A stretch of 64,000 nucleotides of DNA from Deferribacter autotrophicus (lineage in GTDB: Bacteria > Chrysiogenota > Deferribacteres > Deferribacterales > Deferribacteraceae), in contig NZ_VFJB01000009.1 of the NCBI RefSeq assembly GCF_008362905.1, positions 1-64,000 on the forward strand. Reading direction: 5' to 3'. Within the stretch, counting starts at the first letter, position 1, and each line of letters starts with the position of its first letter. Both the position numbers and the translations under genes were made by a program. A model generated the notes under the pieces. It saw only the letters and a program-made list of their open reading frames with translations. It was not told the DNA's origin and ran no database searches. Positions 47,454 through 59,169 of the stretch are shown one piece after another.

Positions 47454-48996
47454 CATAACCTCCATTCAAATCTATTCCACTTTTCACTGCCACATCTTCT
47501 GATGCAGTCACCATCTCTCCGGATTTGATTATTTCAGCTGCTACTTTCAAATCTTTTGCAAACACCCTATCCTCATCCGCATGATCTATCTTTTCTCTCA
47601 CCACCTGATAGCACGCTTCTAAAATAACACTTGATTTTAAAGGTCTCCTAAAATCAAAGGCTTGCGCAGCACAAACCAATTCCACTGCTAAAATATTTTC
47701 TAAGTTATCAAGAATTTTATCCAATTTACGACAACTTACTGAACCCATACTTACATGATCCTCCTGCCCTAAAGATGTGGGAACACTATCAGCACTGGCA
47801 GGAAAACAGAGTGTCTTATTTTCTGTCACAAGGGCAGCCGAAGTATACTGCGGAATCATAAATCCGGAGTTAATCCCTGTATCCTTCATCAAAAACTTCG
47901 GTAAGCCCACTCGTCCTTCTAAAAGAAGATAGGTCCTTCTGTCAGAGATATTCCCAATTTCACTCACAGCAAAAGCTGCATAATCCATAGGAAGAGCTAT
48001 AGGCTGTCCATGAAAATTACCACCACTGATTATATCGTCATGACTAAAAATTATCGGATTGTCTGTCACAGAATTAATCTCTGTCATAAGAATTTCTTTT
48101 AGATGCAAAAATGCATTTCTACTTGCACCGTGTACCTGTGGAATACATCTAAGTGAATAAGGATCCTGTACTCTATCGCAATTTTCATGAGCTCTTAAAA
48201 TCTCAGATCCTTTCAACAATTCCCTAAATCTATGGGCAACAAAAAGACATCCTTTGTATTCCCTCAACCTGTGCAATCTTTCATCAAAAGGCTTAACAGA
48301 ACCCATTAATGATTCAAGAGTCATGGCACCAATAATATCTGCATTATCCAAAATATTTTTCATCCTAATGAGTGATTTCACACCAAAAGCAGCCATAAAT
48401 TGAGTGCCATTTATCAGGGCAAGCCCCTCTTTTGGACCCAACTTTATCGGATCTATTCCAAACTTTTGGTAAATTTCTGCAGTTTCAAAAACTTTACCAT
48501 TATACCTCACCTGACCATAACCTATCAAAGGAAGAAAGAGATGAGCAAGTGGAGCAAGATCTCCGGACGCCCCCACAGATCCCTGACTCGGTACGACAGG
48601 CATAACATCATTTTCAACAAACCATAATATCCTTTTAATGGTTTCTATATTCACTCCAGAATAACCAAAAGAAAGGGAATGTGCTTTTAAAATGAGCATT
48701 ATTTTTACAATATCATCCGGTAAATTTTCTCCCACACCTGCGCTATGACTTTTTAAAAGATTGTATTGAAGCAGTGTGGTATCTTTGGTCGAAATCTTTG
48801 TTGAACAAAGGGAACCAAAACCTGTATTTACACCATAGATCGGTAAATCACTTTCTGCTGCTTTTTTCGTTGCTAAATAAGATGCCTTAATTTTTTCTGC
48901 TGAATCTTCATCAATAATGCATTCTCTTTCTTTATTTAAAATTTCAATTATCAATTTTGGACTAATTTTATCTTTGCCCAATAAAAATTTTTTCAT
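47431..48996 (-). CDS. hutH: Histidine ammonia-lyase
   Basis: The 521-residue enzyme has the Ala-Ser-Gly triad at residues 143-145 ([14 protein letters not shown]). The triad cyclises to the MIO cofactor that removes ammonia from histidine to give urocanate. [10 protein letters not shown] near residue 55 and [20 protein letters not shown] are conserved active-site segments. ATG at 48996 follows GGGGGC. It overlaps the hutC end by 29 bp, so regulator and first enzyme are translated together. Confidence 0.97.
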
Positions 48997-49744
48997 AAGC
49001 CCCCACATTTACTGTATCCCTAATAGCTACACCTTCTTTGCTGTATTTAAATCTTGTACCTATTCTGTACTTATTGCCAGGAGAGACAAATTTTACATAA
49101 GTAACAACCTCATTGCCCAGCCACGTCCTTCTTCTCAACTGAAGGCAGGGAGTATTTTTCTCAATTTTCAAAAGTGAACTTACAAAATCATCAGGCAAAA
49201 TAGCCTCCACAATATGCTCTGCTTCGGTAAAAGGGATTGTTCTCATCAGGTACTGATGAGCAGTTTCATTTTCAAAGTTTACATCTAGATATTCAGGTAC
49301 AACTTTTTTATTTACATACCTATCCTCTATCTGAAACGGTTCATTATCGGCATAATGAACAAAAATTGTATGATAAACTGTCTCATCATCATTTAACCCC
49401 ATCCATTTCATAGCCTCACTACCAACTAGTGTTTCCTCAATCAGCACTGTTTCCAATCTGTGTTTTTTTCCAAGTCGTTCAATCTCATCAGCAATATTTT
49501 TTATTTCAAGCATTTCAGAGACATTGCTTTCCTCTGCCACAAAAGTACCTTTCCCCTGTACACGAACCAGAACACCCTCAGATGTTAACTCCCTCAACGC
49601 CCTATTTACAGTCATTCTGCTAACAGCAAACAACTTGGACAATTCATTTTCGGAAGGGATTTTAAAGCCTGGCTTCCACTCCCCCTTGTGAATCATATTA
49701 ATAATAAACTTTTTAATCTTTATATAAGCTGGTGATATCTCCAT
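48968..49744 (-). CDS. hutC: HutC-like GntR/UTRA transcriptional repressor
   Basis: The 258-residue protein has a GntR winged helix (about 10-73; KIPSENELSKLFAVSRMTVNRALREL then GVLVRVQGKGTFVA) and a UTRA ligand-binding domain (about 90-235). HutC proteins respond to urocanate and bind TTGTATATACAA-type sites. Such a site overlaps the promoter just upstream of this gene, so autoregulation of the whole hut operon is likely. The ATG at 49744 follows GGGGGC by 8 nt. Confidence 0.9.
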   Translation of the reverse strand: MEISPAYIKIKKFIINMIHKGEWKPGFKIPSENELSKLFAVSRMTVNRALRELTSEGVLVRVQGKGTFVAEESNVSEMLEIKNIADEIERLGKKHRLETVLIEETLVGSEAMKWMGLNDDETVYHTIFVHYADNEPFQIEDRYVNKKVVPEYLDVNFENETAHQYLMRTIPFTEAEHIVEAILPDDFVSSLLKIEKNTPCLQLRRRTWLGNEVVTYVKFVSPGNKYRIGTRFKYSKEGVAIRDTVNVGAYEKIFIGQR

Positions 49745-49764
49745 ATATAATGCCCCCATTTTGA

Positions 49765-49783
49765 TTATACATGTATATACAAG
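49765..49783 (-). promoter_or_regulatory. HutC-type operator
   Basis: On the minus strand CTTGTATATACATGTATAA resembles the HutC consensus with a TTGTATATACAA core (10 of 12 core positions). It covers the -10 box of the hut promoter, the position expected for repression. Confidence 0.72.
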
Positions 49784-49800
49784 TTAAAATTAATTGTCAA
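49772..49800 (-). promoter_or_regulatory. Promoter of the hut operon
   Basis: Perfect -35 TTGACA (49795-49800), 17 bp, -10 TATACA (49772-49777) on the minus strand. Expected +1 is near 49765, giving a leader of about 20 nt to the hutC ATG. Confidence 0.8.
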
Positions 49801-50045
49801 TAAATAACACTGTTTAATTAGGTCGTAAGGGTAATAAAAGTTGTAAGGGTAGTATGGGTAATAAAGGTCGTAGGTGAGATGAAGAGATAGAAAAAGTTCA
49901 AGGTTTGAAATAGGTTGAGGTTAAGGTTAAGGAAATAAAATGCAAGTACAACTCCTACACCCCTTATTATCTTTATAATCTTTACACCCCCTAAAACCTT
50001 TACGACCCATAACTAAAAAGTTGGATGATGTCAGCTTTTATTATA
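49801..50045. other. Low-complexity gap between hutC and recC
   Basis: No gene is seen. Repeated words such as GGGTAATAAA and GTAAGGGTA on the left are partly complementary to CCCCTTATTATC and CTTTACACCCCC on the right (about 49960-50005), so an imperfect long hairpin is possible. Confidence 0.6.
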
Positions 50046-50073
50046 TTGAAAATGTTAATAATAATGTTAAAAT
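50046..50073 (+). promoter_or_regulatory. Promoter of recCBD, abutting the recC start codon
   Basis: TTGAAA (50046-50051), 16 bp, TAAAAT (50068-50073). The ATG at 50081 begins 7 nt after the -10 box and there is no Shine-Dalgarno. Confidence 0.65.
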
Positions 50074-50080
50074 ACTTCTC

Positions 50081-53000
50081 ATGAGTAATTCTTATTTTAA
50101 ACTGTACCTTTCAAATGATCTGGAAATTATGCTTCAAGAGCTGTTAAATAACATCAAAAGTCATCAAATAAAAAATCCACTCACTGAAAAACAAACAATT
50201 GTAGTACAAACCGATGGGATGGTAAAATGGATCTCTCTGAACATTGCTGAAAAATTCGGAATTTGTTGCAACTTTGAATTTCTTTTTCCGAGAAATTTCA
50301 TACTCAATACTTTAAAACAACTAAATTTGCTCACGGACGAGGACATAAATTATTTTGATAAAAAAAATCTCACACTGGAAATTATCAAGATTTTACAACA
50401 TCATCGCTATAAAGAATTAGAGAGTTATCTTAGTGATGATGACGGGAAAAAACTCGGACAATTTGCCATCCGTATGGCTGATATTTTTGATCAGTATCTC
50501 ACCTACAGACCAGAATATATACTCTATCCAGAAAAAATCAGTACTTCTTGGCAACAAGATCTTTTCAGCAAAATCATAAATAACGGTTATAAATGTGTAG
50601 CAAAAGCTATTGAAGAATTTTTACTAGGCAATTTTGCCCACAATAAATTAGAAGAAATCCCAGATACAATAAATCTTTTTGCCATATCCATACTCCCACC
50701 TATTTACATCAATTTTATAAAAAAACTCTCAACATACAAAACCATAAACCTATACAGCATCAATCCTTCACAGGAATATTGGTTTGACGATTTAAGCGAA
50801 AAAGCAAAAATACGCTTTTTCAAAAAAGCTTTCTTCAGCGAAGATGAATTTTATTTCACCAGATCAAACCCATTGCTAATAAACAATGGAAAACTTGTAC
50901 AAGACTTTTTCTCAATTCTTTACGATACCGATCCTACACCGCATGAAATAGAAAATTATAACGATTTCAACAATGAAACAGCATTAAATACTTTAAAACA
51001 AAAAATCTTAAACAATGATCCAGCACCTTTTCAACTAAATGATGAAACCATACAGATTCATTCATTTCACAGCAGATTCAGAGAAATAGAAGGAATTTAC
51101 AATTATATTTTAAAAATTATTCAAGACAATCCAGATATATGTCTTGAAGATATTGTTGTAATGTGTCCTGATATTGACGAATATGCACCTTATATTGAAG
51201 GTGTTTTTGAAAATAAAAATATTCCATATAATATTTCAGACAGCAGAATTCTTAAACAGGATAACGGGATTAAAGCCCTTTTCTCCATACTTGATTGTCT
51301 GAAAAAAGATTTAACGGTAAAGGAGTTTGTTTCTCTTTTAGAATATGACGCAATAAAGGAAAAGTTTCAAATCAACCAAACAGAACAGGAGATTATCAGA
51401 GAATGGATCAACGAGCTTAATATCAGATGGGGGCTTACAGAAAATTTTGTAAAATCTTCTTATCCTCATACTGACATCTTCAACACCTTCGAATATAATG
51501 TCAAAAGAATTCTGCTTGGCTATCTCACTAATGAAAACAAAATTATATTCGACTCGCTACCCTACACAGAGCAAACTGTATCAAATGGTGAAACGGCTGG
51601 GAAGTTTTTATATATTATCGACAAAATAACACATTTTATAAACCTCTTAAAAGATAAACGGGACTTAAAATATTTTAAAAACCTATTAATAGATATCATT
51701 AATACTTTTATTGCCAAAAAATATACGGAAACAGCATCTTTTTTAAGTTTTTTAAAAGAATTGGAGCAGTTTAATGATGAAACAATAGAAATATATTTTC
51801 CTGCCTTTTTAGAACTGATAAAAAACATTACAACAAAATCTAAAAACAGCTTAAATTTTATGAGGGGAGGCATCACATTTTGCGAACTCGTACCACTTAG
51901 AAGTATCCCTTTCAAAGTAATATGTCTTATAGGGATGAATGACGAAAACTTTCCAAGAAAAACAAGTAAACTTCTTTTCAATGAAATGGAGCTGAAACCA
52001 AAAAGAGGTGACAGATCAAGCAAACTGAATGACAGACTCCTCTTTTTAGAGTCAATCCTCTCAGCAAAAGAATACCTATACATCAGCTTTATTGGAAAAG
52101 ATATGAAAAAAAATAAGCAGATAAATCCGAGTATTGTTGTTTCAGAGCTATTGGATTTCCTCTCTCTCAACCCCATTGAACACCCTTTACACTCATTCAG
52201 CCCTCTTTACTTTTCAGAGAATAGGGATGAGCTTGTAAACTACAATCCTGAAGATTTTGAAGCCGCAAAATCTTTGCTGGATATCAATGAAGCATCAAAT
52301 ATCATTTTACTGGACGATTCCCCTCTAATACAAAAGGAATTGCCAAAACAGCTACCATTGAAAAAATTGATTGATTTTATAAAAGATCCCCTCAAAACCT
52401 TCTTCAAAGAAAACGGAGTATATCTTGAAATAAAGCTAAACGAATTACAAACCAGGGAAGATTTATCATTGGACAACCTTCAGCAGTATAAATTGAGAAA
52501 CTCTTTAATAAATGAAAAACTTCACGTTGATACAATCCCTTACACCGGATTGCTACCTCACGCTAATATAGGAAAACTTTTTACTAACCTAATAACTAGT
52601 GAAGTGGAAATCATTAAAAAAGCATTAAAAAAAGTCCATAAAGACATTGAGTTATACACCCTTAACTCTTTAAATATCCAAAAAGAAATTAACAGCTACC
52701 TCATTGAAGGAAAAATAGAATATGTATATTCTAACTCGTTTATTATGATTGATTTCGGCAAGCAAGGGCTTGATAAAAGAGATTTTCTACTTCCTCAGAT
52801 TCTTATTTACACATTAATGGGAAATTTCAACGAAAGCTATTTTATCAATCTCAATGAAACAAAAAAAATCACATTTACCACGGATAATAATTATCTGAAA
52901 AAGATTTTGGAAATTTATGAAATAGGCCTGAAAATCCCACTATACTTTGATAAAAAATTGCTTAAAAATAAAAAAATAGATATTACCAATTTTAAAGAAC

Positions 53001-53158
53001 ATTTATCCAAAAAAGTGAAAAGCTTTGTCACTGGTGAAGAAAACAGATATCTAAAATTTTATCTCGAACATTTTACTTTTTCTGATGAATACATAGATAA
53101 ACTTTTCGAGATAAATAGAGAACTTTTTTCAGTAAATGAGGCAATAAATGAACTTTAA
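50081..53158 (+). CDS. recC: Exodeoxyribonuclease V gamma subunit (RecC)
   Basis: A 1025-residue protein. YFKLYLSNDLEIMLQELL at the start and VVQTDGMVKWISLNIAEKFG followed by CNFEFLFPRNFI (about residues 42-77) are RecC landmarks. FHSRFREIEGIYNYIL and the late LVPLRSIPFKVICLIGMNDENFPR are its helicase-like motifs, degenerate as in all RecC. In E. coli RecC holds RecB and RecD together and recognises Chi. ATG at 50081 is preferred over an upstream TTG because the longer frame has no homology and would start inside the promoter. It overlaps recB by 11 bp. Confidence 0.9.
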   Translation: MSNSYFKLYLSNDLEIMLQELLNNIKSHQIKNPLTEKQTIVVQTDGMVKWISLNIAEKFGICCNFEFLFPRNFILNTLKQLNLLTDEDINYFDKKNLTLEIIKILQHHRYKELESYLSDDDGKKLGQFAIRMADIFDQYLTYRPEYILYPEKISTSWQQDLFSKIINNGYKCVAKAIEEFLLGNFAHNKLEEIPDTINLFAISILPPIYINFIKKLSTYKTINLYSINPSQEYWFDDLSEKAKIRFFKKAFFSEDEFYFTRSNPLLINNGKLVQDFFSILYDTDPTPHEIENYNDFNNETALNTLKQKILNNDPAPFQLNDETIQIHSFHSRFREIEGIYNYILKIIQDNPDICLEDIVVMCPDIDEYAPYIEGVFENKNIPYNISDSRILKQDNGIKALFSILDCLKKDLTVKEFVSLLEYDAIKEKFQINQTEQEIIREWINELNIRWGLTENFVKSSYPHTDIFNTFEYNVKRILLGYLTNENKIIFDSLPYTEQTVSNGETAGKFLYIIDKITHFINLLKDKRDLKYFKNLLIDIINTFIAKKYTETASFLSFLKELEQFNDETIEIYFPAFLELIKNITTKSKNSLNFMRGGITFCELVPLRSIPFKVICLIGMNDENFPRKTSKLLFNEMELKPKRGDRSSKLNDRLLFLESILSAKEYLYISFIGKDMKKNKQINPSIVVSELLDFLSLNPIEHPLHSFSPLYFSENRDELVNYNPEDFEAAKSLLDINEASNIILLDDSPLIQKELPKQLPLKKLIDFIKDPLKTFFKENGVYLEIKLNELQTREDLSLDNLQQYKLRNSLINEKLHVDTIPYTGLLPHANIGKLFTNLITSEVEIIKKALKKVHKDIELYTLNSLNIQKEINSYLIEGKIEYVYSNSFIMIDFGKQGLDKRDFLLPQILIYTLMGNFNESYFINLNETKKITFTTDNNYLKKILEIYEIGLKIPLYFDKKLLKNKKIDITNFKEHLSKKVKSFVTGEENRYLKFYLEHFTFSDEYIDKLFEINRELFSVNEAINEL

Positions 53159-56100
53159 TCCTTTTACGGCGAAATTTGATTTTAATGGAAAAAACTTAAT
53201 AGAAGCTTCAGCTGGCACAGACAAAACATACAGTATAGCTGCCATCTATCTCAGGTTATTAATCGAAAAGAAATTAAATCCTGCAAATATTTTAGCCGTA
53301 ACTTTCACAATAGATGCTGCCGAAGAGCTAAAAGAGCGAATCAGAAAAATCATAATTACATCATATAAATTTCTCATGGGTGAAATTAATGAAACTGAAC
53401 TCACAGATAGCAGCCTTAAACAGTACCTAGAATCAATCCCAAGAAATGAATCACTGTTAAGATTAAAAGAAGCCATGCTTCTTTTCGACGAAGCTTCCAT
53501 TTACACAATTCACAAGTTTTGCAAACGAGTTTTATCTGAAAATCCTATTGACACAAACGCCACCTTTGAACAGGATTTCTCATCAGATGACAAAGATTTT
53601 CTCATCGATACCTTATATCACCTTTACAGACAATGGCTCTATAAGGAAGATTTCATAATTATCTCTTATTTCTTAAAAAAATATACAGACCAAAAATTGA
53701 TTAATCTCATTAACAGCTACTTTTTCTCCATTAATTCTATTATTATCCCTCCAAAAGATGTCATTATTGATGAAATTAAAGATCTACACTCTGAAGTTAT
53801 CGACTTTTTTTATCAATTAAAAAACAACTATAATAAACCGGCAAAATACAAAGATGAATTTTTTGCTCAAGAAAACACTCTTATCAACGATTTTGGAAAT
53901 TTCAAAGTAAGTAATAAAATAATGGAAGCTTATCCAGATTTTGCCGAAAAATATCAGCTTTTATGCAGCAAAATCGAGCAACACATAGAAAACAATATCT
54001 TCAACTCTCTTGAAGAATTAGAAAAGCAACTCAACATCCAAAAGGTGAAAAAAAATCTGCTCACATTCACTGATATGATAAGAAATGTTTACCTTGCAAT
54101 AAAAAACCATACTTTCAATCCTAAAAAATATGGTGAACTTCAGGCTCTTTTAATAGATGAGTTTCAGGATACAGATTTCTTGCAGGTTTTCATATTTGAA
54201 AAAATATTTGAAGACAAAACCGCCTTTTTTATAGGTGATCCCAAGCAATCCATTTACAGATTTAGAGGCGCTGATTTAAATGCATATTTTTACGCAACAG
54301 ATAAAGTAGAAAAGAAAAACAGATTCAGACTTACCACCTGTTACCGTTCCACTAAAAACTTAATAGACAACTTTAATAAAATTTTTTCTCAAAATAATTT
54401 TTTTCAAGATTCAAAAATCTCTTATGAAAAAATCAATGTTCCATCCCTTCAAAAACTACATATTGTAACGGGCGATAAGACAAAAGATCTTTGTATCTAT
54501 TTGAAAGATGTTACAAATAAATCTGGCATTCTGGATGATGTTATTTCGGAAATTAACTACCTGCTGAAAAACGCTCAAATAAAAGAGATTGTAAATGGCT
54601 GTGAAACCGTAAGAAAGATAACACCTTCGGACATTGCCATAATCGTCCCAAGCAATATGGATGCGGAAGATATCAGAGCACATTTCAGCAAATATGGCAT
54701 TAAGACTGTACTAAATTCTACAAAATCAGTATTTGAAACAGACGAAGCAAAAGAGCTATACTTATTATTCGATGCTCTTGAAAACTATTCAAGCAATGTA
54801 AAAGTTCAAACGGCTCTTCTCACAAAGATTTTTAATAAAAAAATCAACGAACTTTCTGAAGAGACAATCTCACATTACAAAGAAAAATTTAGCGAATATT
54901 CAAAACTGCTAACAAAAAAAGGGATTATCCCTCTTTTCCTGCATCTCTTTAAAGAAGAGAAGACAAAAATCAACATTTTAAAAGAAACAGGCGGCGAAAG
55001 AATTTTTACAAACTATATGCACATTTTGGAACTACTTCAAAACGCATCCAGATACGAAAATCTCACCATAGAAAATATCAAAAAATGGCTTTCTGCACGA
55101 ATGACCGGCAGTGTAAAAGAAAGTGAAGATTACGAATTGAGGCTTGAATCGGATCAGAATGCTGTAAAAATCACAACCATCCATAAAAGTAAAGGCCTTG
55201 AATACCCTGTGGTATTTTTACTCTTTTTCAACTATTCTTACAGCGAAAAATACGAAGACTTTTTCTTTACCGAATTTGATGCCACAAAAGGACAACATGT
55301 AATAACGTCTAAATCATTAGCGTCAACCTTTGCCGGCTTAGAAGAAGACATAGCAGAAAAAGCAAGGCTTTTTTATGTGTCATTAACAAGGGCTAAAGGG
55401 AGATGTTATCTATTTGACTACAAGACAAAAGGTTATAAATATTTAGACACATTTCTTTATGGTGCTGCTATCGGGGAAAAACTAAATTTTGAAACAAAAA
55501 TTTCAAACCTTACCAATTTGTTACAAGATACTGCGATAATAAAAGTTATCCAGGATGAAAGTAAAGAGATAGCTTTTCAAACTATCTATCAAGAAAGTTT
55601 GGATTTAAAATTTAATGAGTTTCAAGGTGAAATAAAAAGGGATTATCAGCTATCAAGTTATTCAGCCATTACGCACGGTAAATCTGATGAACTGACTGAT
55701 CTCTTTGATGATGAATATCTTGAAGAGGTGCTTTTCAATGAGCTTGATATAAAGTCAAAAACCGAATTACCTCCAGGTGCTAAAACAGGTAATATGATAC
55801 ATCAAATCCTTGAAACAATACCTTATGATATTTCTGATAAAGAATTAAAGTCTGTAATAGAAGAATTTATTCGAAATTATGGATTTGACAACAATGCATA
55901 TAACTATACTTTTAATATGGTTAAAAGCCTTTTAAATAAACCGATAATCATTGACGGAAAACAATTTTATTTAAAAAACCTGAGTACAATAAACAAAATA
56001 AACGAATTCGAGTTTTATATCCCAATTAAAAATCTGAACGATTTTCTATCATCTGTGCATAATTTATTCTTGTCAAAAGGTGAAAAGGATTTTGCAGAGC

Positions 56101-56459
56101 AAATTAAGACCCTAATAAACGGTAAATTTGATTTCAAGCACTATCTTAGAGGATTTATAGACCTTGTATTTGAATATAATGGTAAATTTTATATCATTGA
56201 CTGGAAAACCAACTATTTAGGGGATAATCTATCTGATTATTCTTTGGAAAATATAAAAGATGAAATTGCTAAAAATCATTATTATCTGCAAATTCTTCTC
56301 TATCAACTTGCTCTCTATAAGTATCTAAAACAATTAAATAACAAAAATTTTAAGCTAGGTGAAGTTTTTTACATATTTACAAGAGGTTTTGACCCCAGCA
56401 AAAATCTTGGAATATTTAGATACCGTTTTAGCGAGGAAGAATTAGATGCAATTGAATGA
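53148..56459 (+). CDS. recB: Exodeoxyribonuclease V beta subunit (RecB), altered Walker A
   Basis: The 1103-residue SF1 helicase-nuclease has motif II LLIDEFQDTD, motif III FFIGDPKQSIYRFRGAD, motif V TIHKSKGLEYPVVFLLFF and motif VI RLFYVSLTRAKGRCY, all intact. The C-terminal nuclease has GNMIHQILE, then LRGFIDLVF and YIIDWKTNYLG (active-site Asp, Asp, Lys). Walker A, however, reads ASAGTDKT: Asp25 replaces the Gly before the catalytic Lys26, and motif Ia reads TFTIDAAEELKERI instead of the usual TEAATAEL. GAGG precedes the ATG. Whether the motor still works is open. Confidence 0.92.
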   Translation: MNFNPFTAKFDFNGKNLIEASAGTDKTYSIAAIYLRLLIEKKLNPANILAVTFTIDAAEELKERIRKIIITSYKFLMGEINETELTDSSLKQYLESIPRNESLLRLKEAMLLFDEASIYTIHKFCKRVLSENPIDTNATFEQDFSSDDKDFLIDTLYHLYRQWLYKEDFIIISYFLKKYTDQKLINLINSYFFSINSIIIPPKDVIIDEIKDLHSEVIDFFYQLKNNYNKPAKYKDEFFAQENTLINDFGNFKVSNKIMEAYPDFAEKYQLLCSKIEQHIENNIFNSLEELEKQLNIQKVKKNLLTFTDMIRNVYLAIKNHTFNPKKYGELQALLIDEFQDTDFLQVFIFEKIFEDKTAFFIGDPKQSIYRFRGADLNAYFYATDKVEKKNRFRLTTCYRSTKNLIDNFNKIFSQNNFFQDSKISYEKINVPSLQKLHIVTGDKTKDLCIYLKDVTNKSGILDDVISEINYLLKNAQIKEIVNGCETVRKITPSDIAIIVPSNMDAEDIRAHFSKYGIKTVLNSTKSVFETDEAKELYLLFDALENYSSNVKVQTALLTKIFNKKINELSEETISHYKEKFSEYSKLLTKKGIIPLFLHLFKEEKTKINILKETGGERIFTNYMHILELLQNASRYENLTIENIKKWLSARMTGSVKESEDYELRLESDQNAVKITTIHKSKGLEYPVVFLLFFNYSYSEKYEDFFFTEFDATKGQHVITSKSLASTFAGLEEDIAEKARLFYVSLTRAKGRCYLFDYKTKGYKYLDTFLYGAAIGEKLNFETKISNLTNLLQDTAIIKVIQDESKEIAFQTIYQESLDLKFNEFQGEIKRDYQLSSYSAITHGKSDELTDLFDDEYLEEVLFNELDIKSKTELPPGAKTGNMIHQILETIPYDISDKELKSVIEEFIRNYGFDNNAYNYTFNMVKSLLNKPIIIDGKQFYLKNLSTINKINEFEFYIPIKNLNDFLSSVHNLFLSKGEKDFAEQIKTLINGKFDFKHYLRGFIDLVFEYNGKFYIIDWKTNYLGDNLSDYSLENIKDEIAKNHYYLQILLYQLALYKYLKQLNNKNFKLGEVFYIFTRGFDPSKNLGIFRYRFSEEELDAIE

Positions 56460-58191
56460 TAATTTTCTAGAAAAATTAATTGATGAAAACATTATAACCT
56501 TTGCCGATTATGAAATTTATAAATGGATTTACAAACTGTATTCTTCTAATATTACAGCTTTAATAGCATTGTTAGTAAACTATAAACTTCGCAATGGGGA
56601 TAGTTGTCTCTTAATTGATGAAATTGAAAAAAAAGATTTAGCCGAAATACTATTTTATGAATCATCTCTCGATTTAAAGTTGCCAGATAAACAAAAAATA
56701 GTTGATGAGCTTGCAAAATCAGGTTTGATAGGCAACGCAAATTCTCTTTGTCATCTTGACGAAAAAAATAGGCTTTTTTTTAAAAGAATATATAGCTATG
56801 AAAAAAATGTAGCAAATAAATTAAAACAATTAGCATCAATTAAAACTTTTTTTAATAATTCAAACACAAAGCAATCCCCGGGAAAAAATTGGCAAGATGT
56901 GGCCATACAGATGGCAAAAATTAATCAGCTTCTTGTCATCTCTGGTGGCCCGGGTACAGGGAAAACCACCACAGTAAAAAAAATTATTAAAAATCTTTTA
57001 ATGGAAAATGAAAAATTAAATATTATTCTCTCAGCTCCTACAGGAAAGGCTGTCTCAAGACTTCAGGAATCACTAAAAGATGATGAAATATCTGAAAAAA
57101 TCAATCCACCTGTAACCATCCACAAACTACTTGGTGCAAACTACACCCTCACTCGCTTTTATTACAACGATAAAAATAAACTGCCCTACGATGTAATAAT
57201 CGTGGATGAAGTATCAATGGTAAATCTTGAACTGATGCACCAGCTTTTAATATCAATAAAAGATGATGCAAAATTGATTTTATTGGGAGATAAAGACCAG
57301 CTCTCATCAGTGGAGGCCGGAGCAATTATGGGAGAAATCTGTAGTTTTCCTGAAATTTACCCTCAAATAAATACTATAAATTCTTTTTCCAAAGAATATG
57401 GTAAAAAACTATATATTCCTGATGAAAACCTTGTAAATATTGATAATCCGCTTATCGATTGCACTATAGAATTTACAAAAAATTATAGATTTAAAGAAGA
57501 TAGCGGTATCGGTCTCCTATCCAATGCTATAAAAAATAACAACTTTACTCTTATTGAAAATATAATAAGTAAAAAGATTTCTTTTGACGATCTCATCTTA
57601 ATCGAAAAACCGTCAAATACACTTTTTGATGAGATTGTCGATGATTATTACAACAATCTCAAGGATGATCTCTTATCCACATTAACTGCTGTAAAAATAT
57701 TGACACCATACAGAATCACACCCTTTGGAAGCGAAAAATTAAATGAAATTATAGATAAAAAACTCAGAAAAAAATTTCTTACATCCCAAACATGGTATAC
57801 AGGCAGGCAAGTTATCATAACCGTAAATGACTACCAGAACGAACTATTCAATGGAGATATAGGTATTTGTATGAAAAAAGATAATAAAGAGTATATAGCC
57901 TTTTTAAGAACAGGTGATGAAAATTATAAATATCTGCACCCATCCCTTTTACCTGCCTACGATCTTGCCTTTGCCATGACTGTGCACAAAAGTCAGGGTT
58001 CAGAGTTTGATAAAGTTTATTTTTTCATAGGTCAAAAAGAATCAGATCTTTTGAATAGGGAACTCATTTATACTGCCATCACAAGAGCCAGAAAAAAGAT
58101 TATTATCATAGGCAATAAAGACTTACTTTTTAACAGTCTAATGAAGAAAACCACCCGCAAATCCGCTCTATCCGACATGCTTTATAGGTAA
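56446..58191 (+). CDS. recD: Exodeoxyribonuclease V alpha subunit (RecD)
   Basis: The 581-residue SF1B helicase has motif I ISGGPGTGKTTTVKKI (about residues 165-180), Ia SAPTGKAVSRLQESL, II VIIVDEVSMVNLELM, III LILLGDKDQLSSVEAGAIMGE, IV NYRF, V AMTVHKSQGSEFDKVYFF and VI YTAITRARKKIIIIG. All are intact, so RecD should be an active 5'-3' motor. GAGGAAG precedes the ATG, which overlaps recB by 14 bp. Length matches the family. Confidence 0.95.
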   Translation: MQLNDNFLEKLIDENIITFADYEIYKWIYKLYSSNITALIALLVNYKLRNGDSCLLIDEIEKKDLAEILFYESSLDLKLPDKQKIVDELAKSGLIGNANSLCHLDEKNRLFFKRIYSYEKNVANKLKQLASIKTFFNNSNTKQSPGKNWQDVAIQMAKINQLLVISGGPGTGKTTTVKKIIKNLLMENEKLNIILSAPTGKAVSRLQESLKDDEISEKINPPVTIHKLLGANYTLTRFYYNDKNKLPYDVIIVDEVSMVNLELMHQLLISIKDDAKLILLGDKDQLSSVEAGAIMGEICSFPEIYPQINTINSFSKEYGKKLYIPDENLVNIDNPLIDCTIEFTKNYRFKEDSGIGLLSNAIKNNNFTLIENIISKKISFDDLILIEKPSNTLFDEIVDDYYNNLKDDLLSTLTAVKILTPYRITPFGSEKLNEIIDKKLRKKFLTSQTWYTGRQVIITVNDYQNELFNGDIGICMKKDNKEYIAFLRTGDENYKYLHPSLLPAYDLAFAMTVHKSQGSEFDKVYFFIGQKESDLLNRELIYTAITRARKKIIIIGNKDLLFNSLMKKTTRKSALSDMLYR

Positions 58192-58245
58192 TTTCTACTG
58201 AAGAATTTCTTTTGATATTAATAAGATTGGGAAATAACCCCTCTG

Positions 58246-58269
58246 AGTTCTTTTTGAAAGGACTTTTTC
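58246..58269 (+). terminator. Terminator-like hairpin after recD
   Basis: AGTTCTTT, a TTG loop and AAAGGACT are followed by TTTTT. It lies 55 bp after the recD stop in the convergent gap. One G-T pair is in the stem. Confidence 0.5.
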
Positions 58270-58281
58270 AGTGGACGCCAA

Positions 58282-59169
58282 TTATTTTAAATAATCGGAT
58301 AAAGTCTTTTCGATATCCTTCTGAATAATACCCATTATTTGAAAAATTTCATTATTCTCACATGTATTGCCCTCTCTGAGCATTTCAAACTGATCTCTTG
58401 CAATAGGAAACCAGGAAAATTTGCCAAAAAGTTTTATTGCAAAATCAATTATAAACTCAGGCACTGGAATTAAAACTCTCTTTCTACCCGTAATTTCCAT
58501 TATGAGCTTTAAAATCTCCTTATAGCTTAATATCTTATTCCCGCATACAGTAAATGTTTTGTTAAAAGTCTTTTCATTTTCTATCGATTTAACAAATATC
58601 TCTGCTACTTCATAGACACTCACCGGCTGCATAGGATATGAACCGTCACCAAAATAAGAAAAAACAGGCATTTTTTTCATGAAATCATTTAACATATTTA
58701 TAAAAGAATCATCAGGTCCATAAATTATAGAAGGTTTAAATATTGTATAAGTTAAGCCTGAATTTCTCACATATTCTTCAGCTCTAAATTTTGTCTTGTG
58801 ATAAGTAGTAACACCATCTTCTCTCGCACCATTTGCAGACATGTGGATAAAACGCTTTACATTAGCCTTTACAGTTTCATCAACCAATAACTTCGTTGCT
58901 TCATAATGCATTTTTTCAAAGGTAACTCCCTTTGATGGAAATTCCCTTATTATCCCTACAAGATGAATAACTGTATCAACATCTTTTAAAGCATCAGAGT
59001 AGCTTTCAGGTTTTAAAGCATCACCCACTACAATTTGAATCCTGTCATCCTTCACTTTCAATCTGACAGGATCTCTTACAAGAACAATGGGTTCATAACC
59101 GTATTTCAGCAGCGTTTTTAAAATTTCTGTTCCAACAAAACCCGTACCACCTGTTAAAAAAATTTTCAT
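58282..59169 (-). CDS. Atypical short-chain dehydrogenase (NDUFA9-like NAD(P)-binding protein)
   Basis: This 295-residue extended Rossmann-fold protein has an N-terminal nucleotide-binding loop MKIFLTGGTGFVGTEIL with the TGGTGFVG pattern of atypical SDRs. VDTVIHLVGIIREFP (about 69-83) and the YHKTKFRAEEYVRNSGLTYTIFKPSIIYGP region (about 122-151), with Tyr and Lys in a YxxxK setting, are typical of the complex I NDUFA9-like/UDP-sugar epimerase-like group. Substrate unknown. GAGGAG precedes the ATG, 8 bp after the DUF4139 gene. Confidence 0.8.
   Translation of the reverse strand: MKIFLTGGTGFVGTEILKTLLKYGYEPIVLVRDPVRLKVKDDRIQIVVGDALKPESYSDALKDVDTVIHLVGIIREFPSKGVTFEKMHYEATKLLVDETVKANVKRFIHMSANGAREDGVTTYHKTKFRAEEYVRNSGLTYTIFKPSIIYGPDDSFINMLNDFMKKMPVFSYFGDGSYPMQPVSVYEVAEIFVKSIENEKTFNKTFTVCGNKILSYKEILKLIMEITGRKRVLIPVPEFIIDFAIKLFGKFSWFPIARDQFEMLREGNTCENNEIFQIMGIIQKDIEKTLSDYLK

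Follow-up and report, generated by a model that had tools for sequence, protein, structure and literature searches.

What has become of a RecBCD helicase-nuclease whose RecB subunit carries an aspartate in its ATP-binding loop, beside a RecD subunit with a normal one? The question is raised by the recB gene of Deferribacter autotrophicus, a heat-loving deep-sea bacterium, at 53148..56459 (+ strand) of the stretch of DNA analysed here, positions 1 to 64,000 of contig NZ_VFJB01000009.1 in assembly GCF_008362905.1 (hereafter the window, 64,000 nucleotides long). An initial annotation, made from the sequence of this stretch alone, had pointed out the aspartate, and we followed it up by comparison with related genomes. 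We lean towards the view that the change is a mutation that would kill the RecB motor, that it is tolerated thanks to a second enzyme, AddAB, encoded elsewhere in the genome, and that it marks an early step in the displacement of RecBCD by AddAB.

The RecB Walker A motif carries a rare aspartate

The RecB of the window, 1103 aa long, reads ASAGTDKT at residues 20-27 (Walker A, or helicase motif I; codons at 53205..53228, + strand), and codon 25, at 53220..53222 (+ strand), is GAC, whereas in relatives a glycine (GGN) is encoded there. With Asp in place of the Gly before the Lys, the protein fails the standard Walker A pattern (GxGK[ST]). E. coli RecB (PDB 1w36_B), which matches it at 2.6e-92, has ASAGTGKT in the aligned stretch. 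The RecD motor keeps a standard Walker A, GGPGTGKT at residue 167, together with four further motifs, and the initial annotation's reading of an Asp beside a normal RecD is thus confirmed.

The annotation had suggested aligning relatives at position 25. Sixteen genomes in a phylum set of 50 carry RecC, and the RecB Walker A was read in all 16: position 25 is Asp in the window and Gly in the other 15/15, including the same-genus relative (G001, codon GGT). The Gly reads come from L005-L016 and the partial L018, plus G039 and G044, and L018, G039 and G044 were confirmed as RecB by TIGR00609. As side observations, recB and recC of G039 lie on different contigs (L110, L111), apparently not in one operon, and the RecC match at G033:C28:100955-101902 is in an open frame of just 518 aa, where recC may be split.

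When any codon was allowed at this position, the motif pattern gave 22 matches in 21/50 genomes of the phylum, 21 with Gly and one with Asp, several of them AddA-like and not RecB. In the class of G050, 34/185 genomes matched, with one non-RecB match in G050 itself and 33 Gly frames, which are counted as matches to the motif. Replacement of the glycine by Ala, Asp, Glu or Val was then sought in 84,980 species genomes, a collection that possibly does not include the window's own genome, and only two matches were returned. They lie in frames of 169 and 254 aa that have no NCBIfam match and are not RecB. The pattern scanned was E-A-(S/T-like)-A-G-(S/T-like)-x-K-T-(F/Y-like), and EANAGT RecBs, as in family f6, fall outside it. 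In its own genome the window matched this pattern once, and no DNA of the same species was found among viral contigs.

The Asp25 substitution is real. The published genome of D. autotrophicus SL50 was assembled from Illumina MiSeq data, both paired-end and mate-pair, with 199x coverage (PMC6896113), which makes a base error unlikely. The assembly that includes the window comprises 10 contigs and 2,535,300 bases at 99.9% completeness, with no contamination. Our literature searches, in which most of the listed papers were left unopened, yielded no report that we recognised of a Gly-Asp change in a RecB Walker A, of Deferribacter RecBCD or of natural RecB loss. XPD G47R is presumably a lesion at the equivalent glycine, for which the search gave no confirming paper. 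A study on a viral helicase tested other Walker A glycines, not the position equivalent to RecB 25 (PMC6205958).

The genome with the lesion is the only one of 39 in its order with both RecC and AddB

When the genome was queried with its own RecB, a RecB-like open reading frame was found on contig C8. It belongs to an adjacent, overlapping addA-addB pair (C8:5548-11482). AddA (C8 5548-8664, 1038 aa) best matches NF010485, the RecB-like helicase PRK13909, at 1.9e-75 (255 bits, cut-off 650), and AddB (C8 8654-11482, 942 aa) matches TIGR02786, the alphaproteobacterial-type AddB, at 7.8e-29 (100 bits, cut-off 486.5); the best NCBIfam matches of both are all below the curated cut-offs. AddB has a PD-(D/E)XK domain (PF12705, 3.1e-32, over the cut-off), with the nuclease motif and a Cys cluster. 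AddA gave no PF12705 match at 1e-3, yet the IIDFKTG motif is present. Five orthologues in the Deferribacterales families f2 and f8, whose AddAB is of the same type, share the motifs of both proteins, and AddA is 51% identical to that of f8 and 41% to that of G002 (f2).

To see how the two systems are distributed, 39 genomes of the order, 7 of them <90% complete, were searched for both RecC and AddB. RecC was found in 14, AddB in 25 and neither in one (G036, a draft in which an AddA-like match is present). The only genome with both is the one with the RecB lesion; unlike it, the other AddB-bearing genomes (24/25) have AddB without RecC. The Fisher p for this exclusion is 2.3e-8, not corrected for phylogeny, a value that overstates the evidence because the genomes are related. 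Beyond f2 and f8 the AddB matches are weak, and they adjoin AddA-like matches in the places listed. In family f6, RecC occurs in genera g10 and g15 and AddB in g6 and g13, and switches have therefore occurred within a family.

In bacteria at large, RecBCD and AddAB are reported together in only 16/5563 genomes (PMC6452273), and recBCD and addAB have been described as replacing each other (PMC1193525, PMC4224334). The literature listed on their coexistence, most of it unopened, held nothing that we recognised as the lesion of the window.

No general decay is seen in the rest of RecB

The other helicase motifs and the nuclease site had been described as intact, and all those that we looked for are indeed present: TFT.DAA at 52, DEFQDT at 337, GDPKQSIY at 363, CYRS at 398, TIHKSKGLE at 677 and YVSLTRAK at 743, followed by a C-terminal PD-(D/E)XK nuclease (PF12705, 9e-7, over the cut-off) with IIDWKTN at 1016. 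Motif Ia had also been singled out as off consensus. The departure exists, but it is a trait of the genus: the window has VTFTIDAAEELK and the same-genus relative VTFTVDAAEELK, so that most of it is shared and belongs to the genus. We therefore do not count motif Ia towards the lesion. Two residues flanking it, V50A just before and L69I just after, are private to the window in an alignment of 13 sequences.

General decay of RecB was likewise considered and found unsupported. When each of the 13 aligned RecBs was left out in turn, the window departed at 6/118 columns invariant in the rest, exactly as its sister in the genus did (6/118), and the next genome, G005, at 11/123; with the 11 other RecBs as the reference, the count is 20/138 columns for window and sister alike. 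The six private changes of the window are G25D, V50A, L69I, L513F, P692L and A745S, the last within motif VI, and among them G25D alone removes a key residue of the catalytic loop. Tajima relative-rate tests of window against sister were not significant for RecB, with six outgroups and with their consensus (7/7), nor for RecD (7/7), nor in 6/7 tests for RecC, the seventh giving p 0.022 with the sister faster.

Identity between window and sister is 43-44% in RecB, compared with 67-82% in eight proteins from a single region that served as controls. A foreign origin of RecB was nevertheless unsupported, the RecB and UvrD identities of this pair (44 and 67%) being in line with what other pairs give, for example G013-G031 (45 and 70%). 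By these comparisons RecB is a fast-evolving gene, and it looks to have been inherited within the genus and to have been under constraint in recent times, apart from a single severe change. That this lesion is recent and stands alone is suggested by the other motifs, which are kept, and by evolution no faster than in the sister.

The substitution probably disables the RecB motor

A P-loop glycine abuts the phosphates, and the change to Asp at this otherwise invariant position probably kills the RecB motor. A lost or weakened 3'-5' motor, which the initial annotation had proposed, is thus the best inference from the sequences compared, as is a recent damaging mutation, its other proposal, given that RecB has no other signs of decay.

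A laboratory mutant of E. coli offers a comparison. RecBCD with RecB K29Q (recB29) consists of the same three subunits, is hit in the same RecB Walker A motif, at the neighbouring residue, and, like the enzyme of the window, keeps the RecD motor and the nuclease motifs. It differs in that the change of the window is natural or culture-derived, is from Gly to Asp and occurs where AddAB is also present. K29Q, at the Walker A lysine, is reported as an ATPase and helicase mutant that is double-strand nuclease-negative and fails the plasmid-maintenance function tested (PMC7641324, PMC10025158), while E. coli complexes without either helicase are still able to unwind DNA (PMC10025158). By analogy with the E. 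coli mutants, the useful nuclease function of RecBCD would also be lost. The idea that the enzyme relies on RecD is in this light unsupported, even though complexes lacking one helicase still unwind, and AddAB is a likelier back-up than RecD.

AddAB was probably gained by horizontal transfer

The same-genus relative has no AddB match, and its sole AddA match is its own RecB. The GC content is 27.7% in addA, 26.6% in addB and 26.7% in the surrounding 14 kb, as compared with 34.1% in the window, 35.1% in a region of contig C4, 30-31% in recBCD and 32.6% for the D. autotrophicus genome as published (PMC6896113). Within f8 (L087, L091, L076), genomes whose UvrD proteins share 80-81% identity have AddA proteins that share 95-97%, which suggests transfer of AddAB between f8 species. 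Together with the 51% identity of the window genome's AddA to that of f8, where G002 (f2) and f8 share 38-39% at a similar UvrD divergence, this makes AddAB seem mobile. On such comparisons, AddAB was probably gained by horizontal transfer.

Within 15 kb of AddAB there are a WYL regulator, an AAA ATPase, a DUF2357/PDDEXK_7 protein, an ankyrin-repeat protein and a ResIII helicase; no integrase or transposase was seen among the open reading frames tested. The setting is island-like and possibly defence-related. Joint movement of AddAB with its neighbours was considered and discarded, no other gene of C8:1-30000 having matched the 14-19 kb around AddAB of G008, G015, G002 and G006.

The RecBCD locus and its surroundings

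The three genes of the locus form an adjacent trio with family-level matches, recC directly 5' and recD directly 3' of recB. recC (exodeoxyribonuclease V gamma) lies at 50021..53158 (+ strand), overlaps recB by 11 bases and matches TIGR01450 at 1.8e-169 (566 bits, slightly below the cut-off of 583) and PF04257 at 2.8e-59; the PF04257 and PF17946 matches of the locus exceed their cut-offs. The match of RecB to TIGR00609 (2.1e-192) scores 642 bits, short of the curated cut-off (696), and judged by its matches it is by descent still a RecB. recD (56446..58191, + strand; 581 aa) overlaps recB by 14 bases and its product matches TIGR01447 at 5.6e-135 (451 bits, above the curated cut-off of 310). 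By eye, the neighbours of recBCD (48968-59169) include a GntR-like regulator and an epimerase-like gene in the window, and phosphomannomutase-like and GGDEF-EAL-like genes in the same-genus relative (L038). As the neighbours differ between the two Deferribacter genomes, the operon or its surroundings have moved.

Discussion

The main rival explanation, unlikely in our judgement but the one to be taken most seriously, is a mutation that appeared or became fixed while the organism was being isolated or cultured, that has no connection with AddAB and that is absent from the wild species, which would have Gly. A single base change from a GGC codon would be enough, and nothing else in the gene has decayed. 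In Thermus thermophilus, moreover, deletion of a primase-polymerase gene is reported to have led to a loss-of-function addAB mutation (PMC9751324), an example of how a lesion of this kind can come about in a thermophile kept in the laboratory. An origin in culture leaves without explanation why the sole dual-system genome of the 39 has the lesion, although this may be coincidence.

We give little credence to a specialised RecBCD kept by selection, in which the RecB ATPase would have been switched off with RecC, RecD and the nuclease domain retained, RecD would be the sole working motor and RecB would serve as nuclease and scaffold, the complex acting as an end-binding unwinder beside AddAB or handing ends to it. 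The conserved RecD and RecB nuclease motifs, the unaccelerated evolution of the genes and the unwinding by E. coli complexes without either helicase (PMC10025158) would fit such an enzyme. The E. coli RecB ATPase mutant, however, is reported as double-strand nuclease-negative and failed the assay (PMC7641324, PMC10025158), and the allele is seen in one species only. Very unlikely, too, is an Asp25 that is tolerated by a RecB still hydrolysing ATP; the lack of decay elsewhere in RecB would agree with it, but none of the frames that the collection scan returned with Ala, Asp, Glu or Val in such a motif was a RecB or an AddA, and the glycine lies against the phosphates. A one-base sequencing or assembly error, which the single assembly and the lack of any RecB relative with Asp might suggest, is hardly to be credited in view of the 199x paired-end and mate-pair assembly (PMC6896113) and of the single full-length match in the own-genome search, by which no collapsed second copy is seen.

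We therefore continue to lean towards a motor-killing mutation tolerated thanks to AddAB. A real and recent missense change would disable ATP binding and hydrolysis by RecB, and RecBCD would then lack the 3'-5' motor and, if the E. coli mutants are a guide, useful nuclease function as well. The lesion would be tolerated because AddAB (motifs intact) does the same end-resection job, and the locus would represent an early stage of AddAB displacing RecBCD. That the motor is lost, that AddAB was gained horizontally and that AddAB is what allowed the lesion are all reasoned from one genome.

Several points weigh against this explanation. It rests on the sequence of one isolate, and from a single genome no statistical tie between AddAB and the lesion can be drawn. 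The RecB lesion may also have come before the gain of AddAB. A recent lesion would leave RecB without relaxed selection, as observed, but so would a culture mutation or an error. Outside f2 and f8 many of the AddB matches are weak, with E values as poor as 1e-4, and 7/39 genomes are <90% complete. The low GC of AddAB is only mild evidence of transfer because recBCD is itself 3-4 points below the window and occupies a different place in the sister; AddAB could also be of long standing, with a loss in the sister, f2 and f8 having the same subtype. Given the possible defence genes nearby, AddAB might also act in defence.

A parallel is found in Wolbachia, where ruvA is reported to have been neutralised, with RecG as the redundant partner (PMC4224334). 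There, as in D. autotrophicus, one amino-acid change was followed by the weakening of a recombination gene, and a redundant system stayed intact. Many Wolbachia strains are available and a test of selection was possible, whereas the change of the window is known from one genome.

Dual-system genomes are rare, and the switch between RecBCD and AddAB is consequently hard to study. The genome of D. autotrophicus has both systems and what appears to be a first inactivating hit in one of them, so that the order of events, gain of AddAB and then loss of the RecB motor, may be tested in a single thermophile that is in culture and in the species closest to it.

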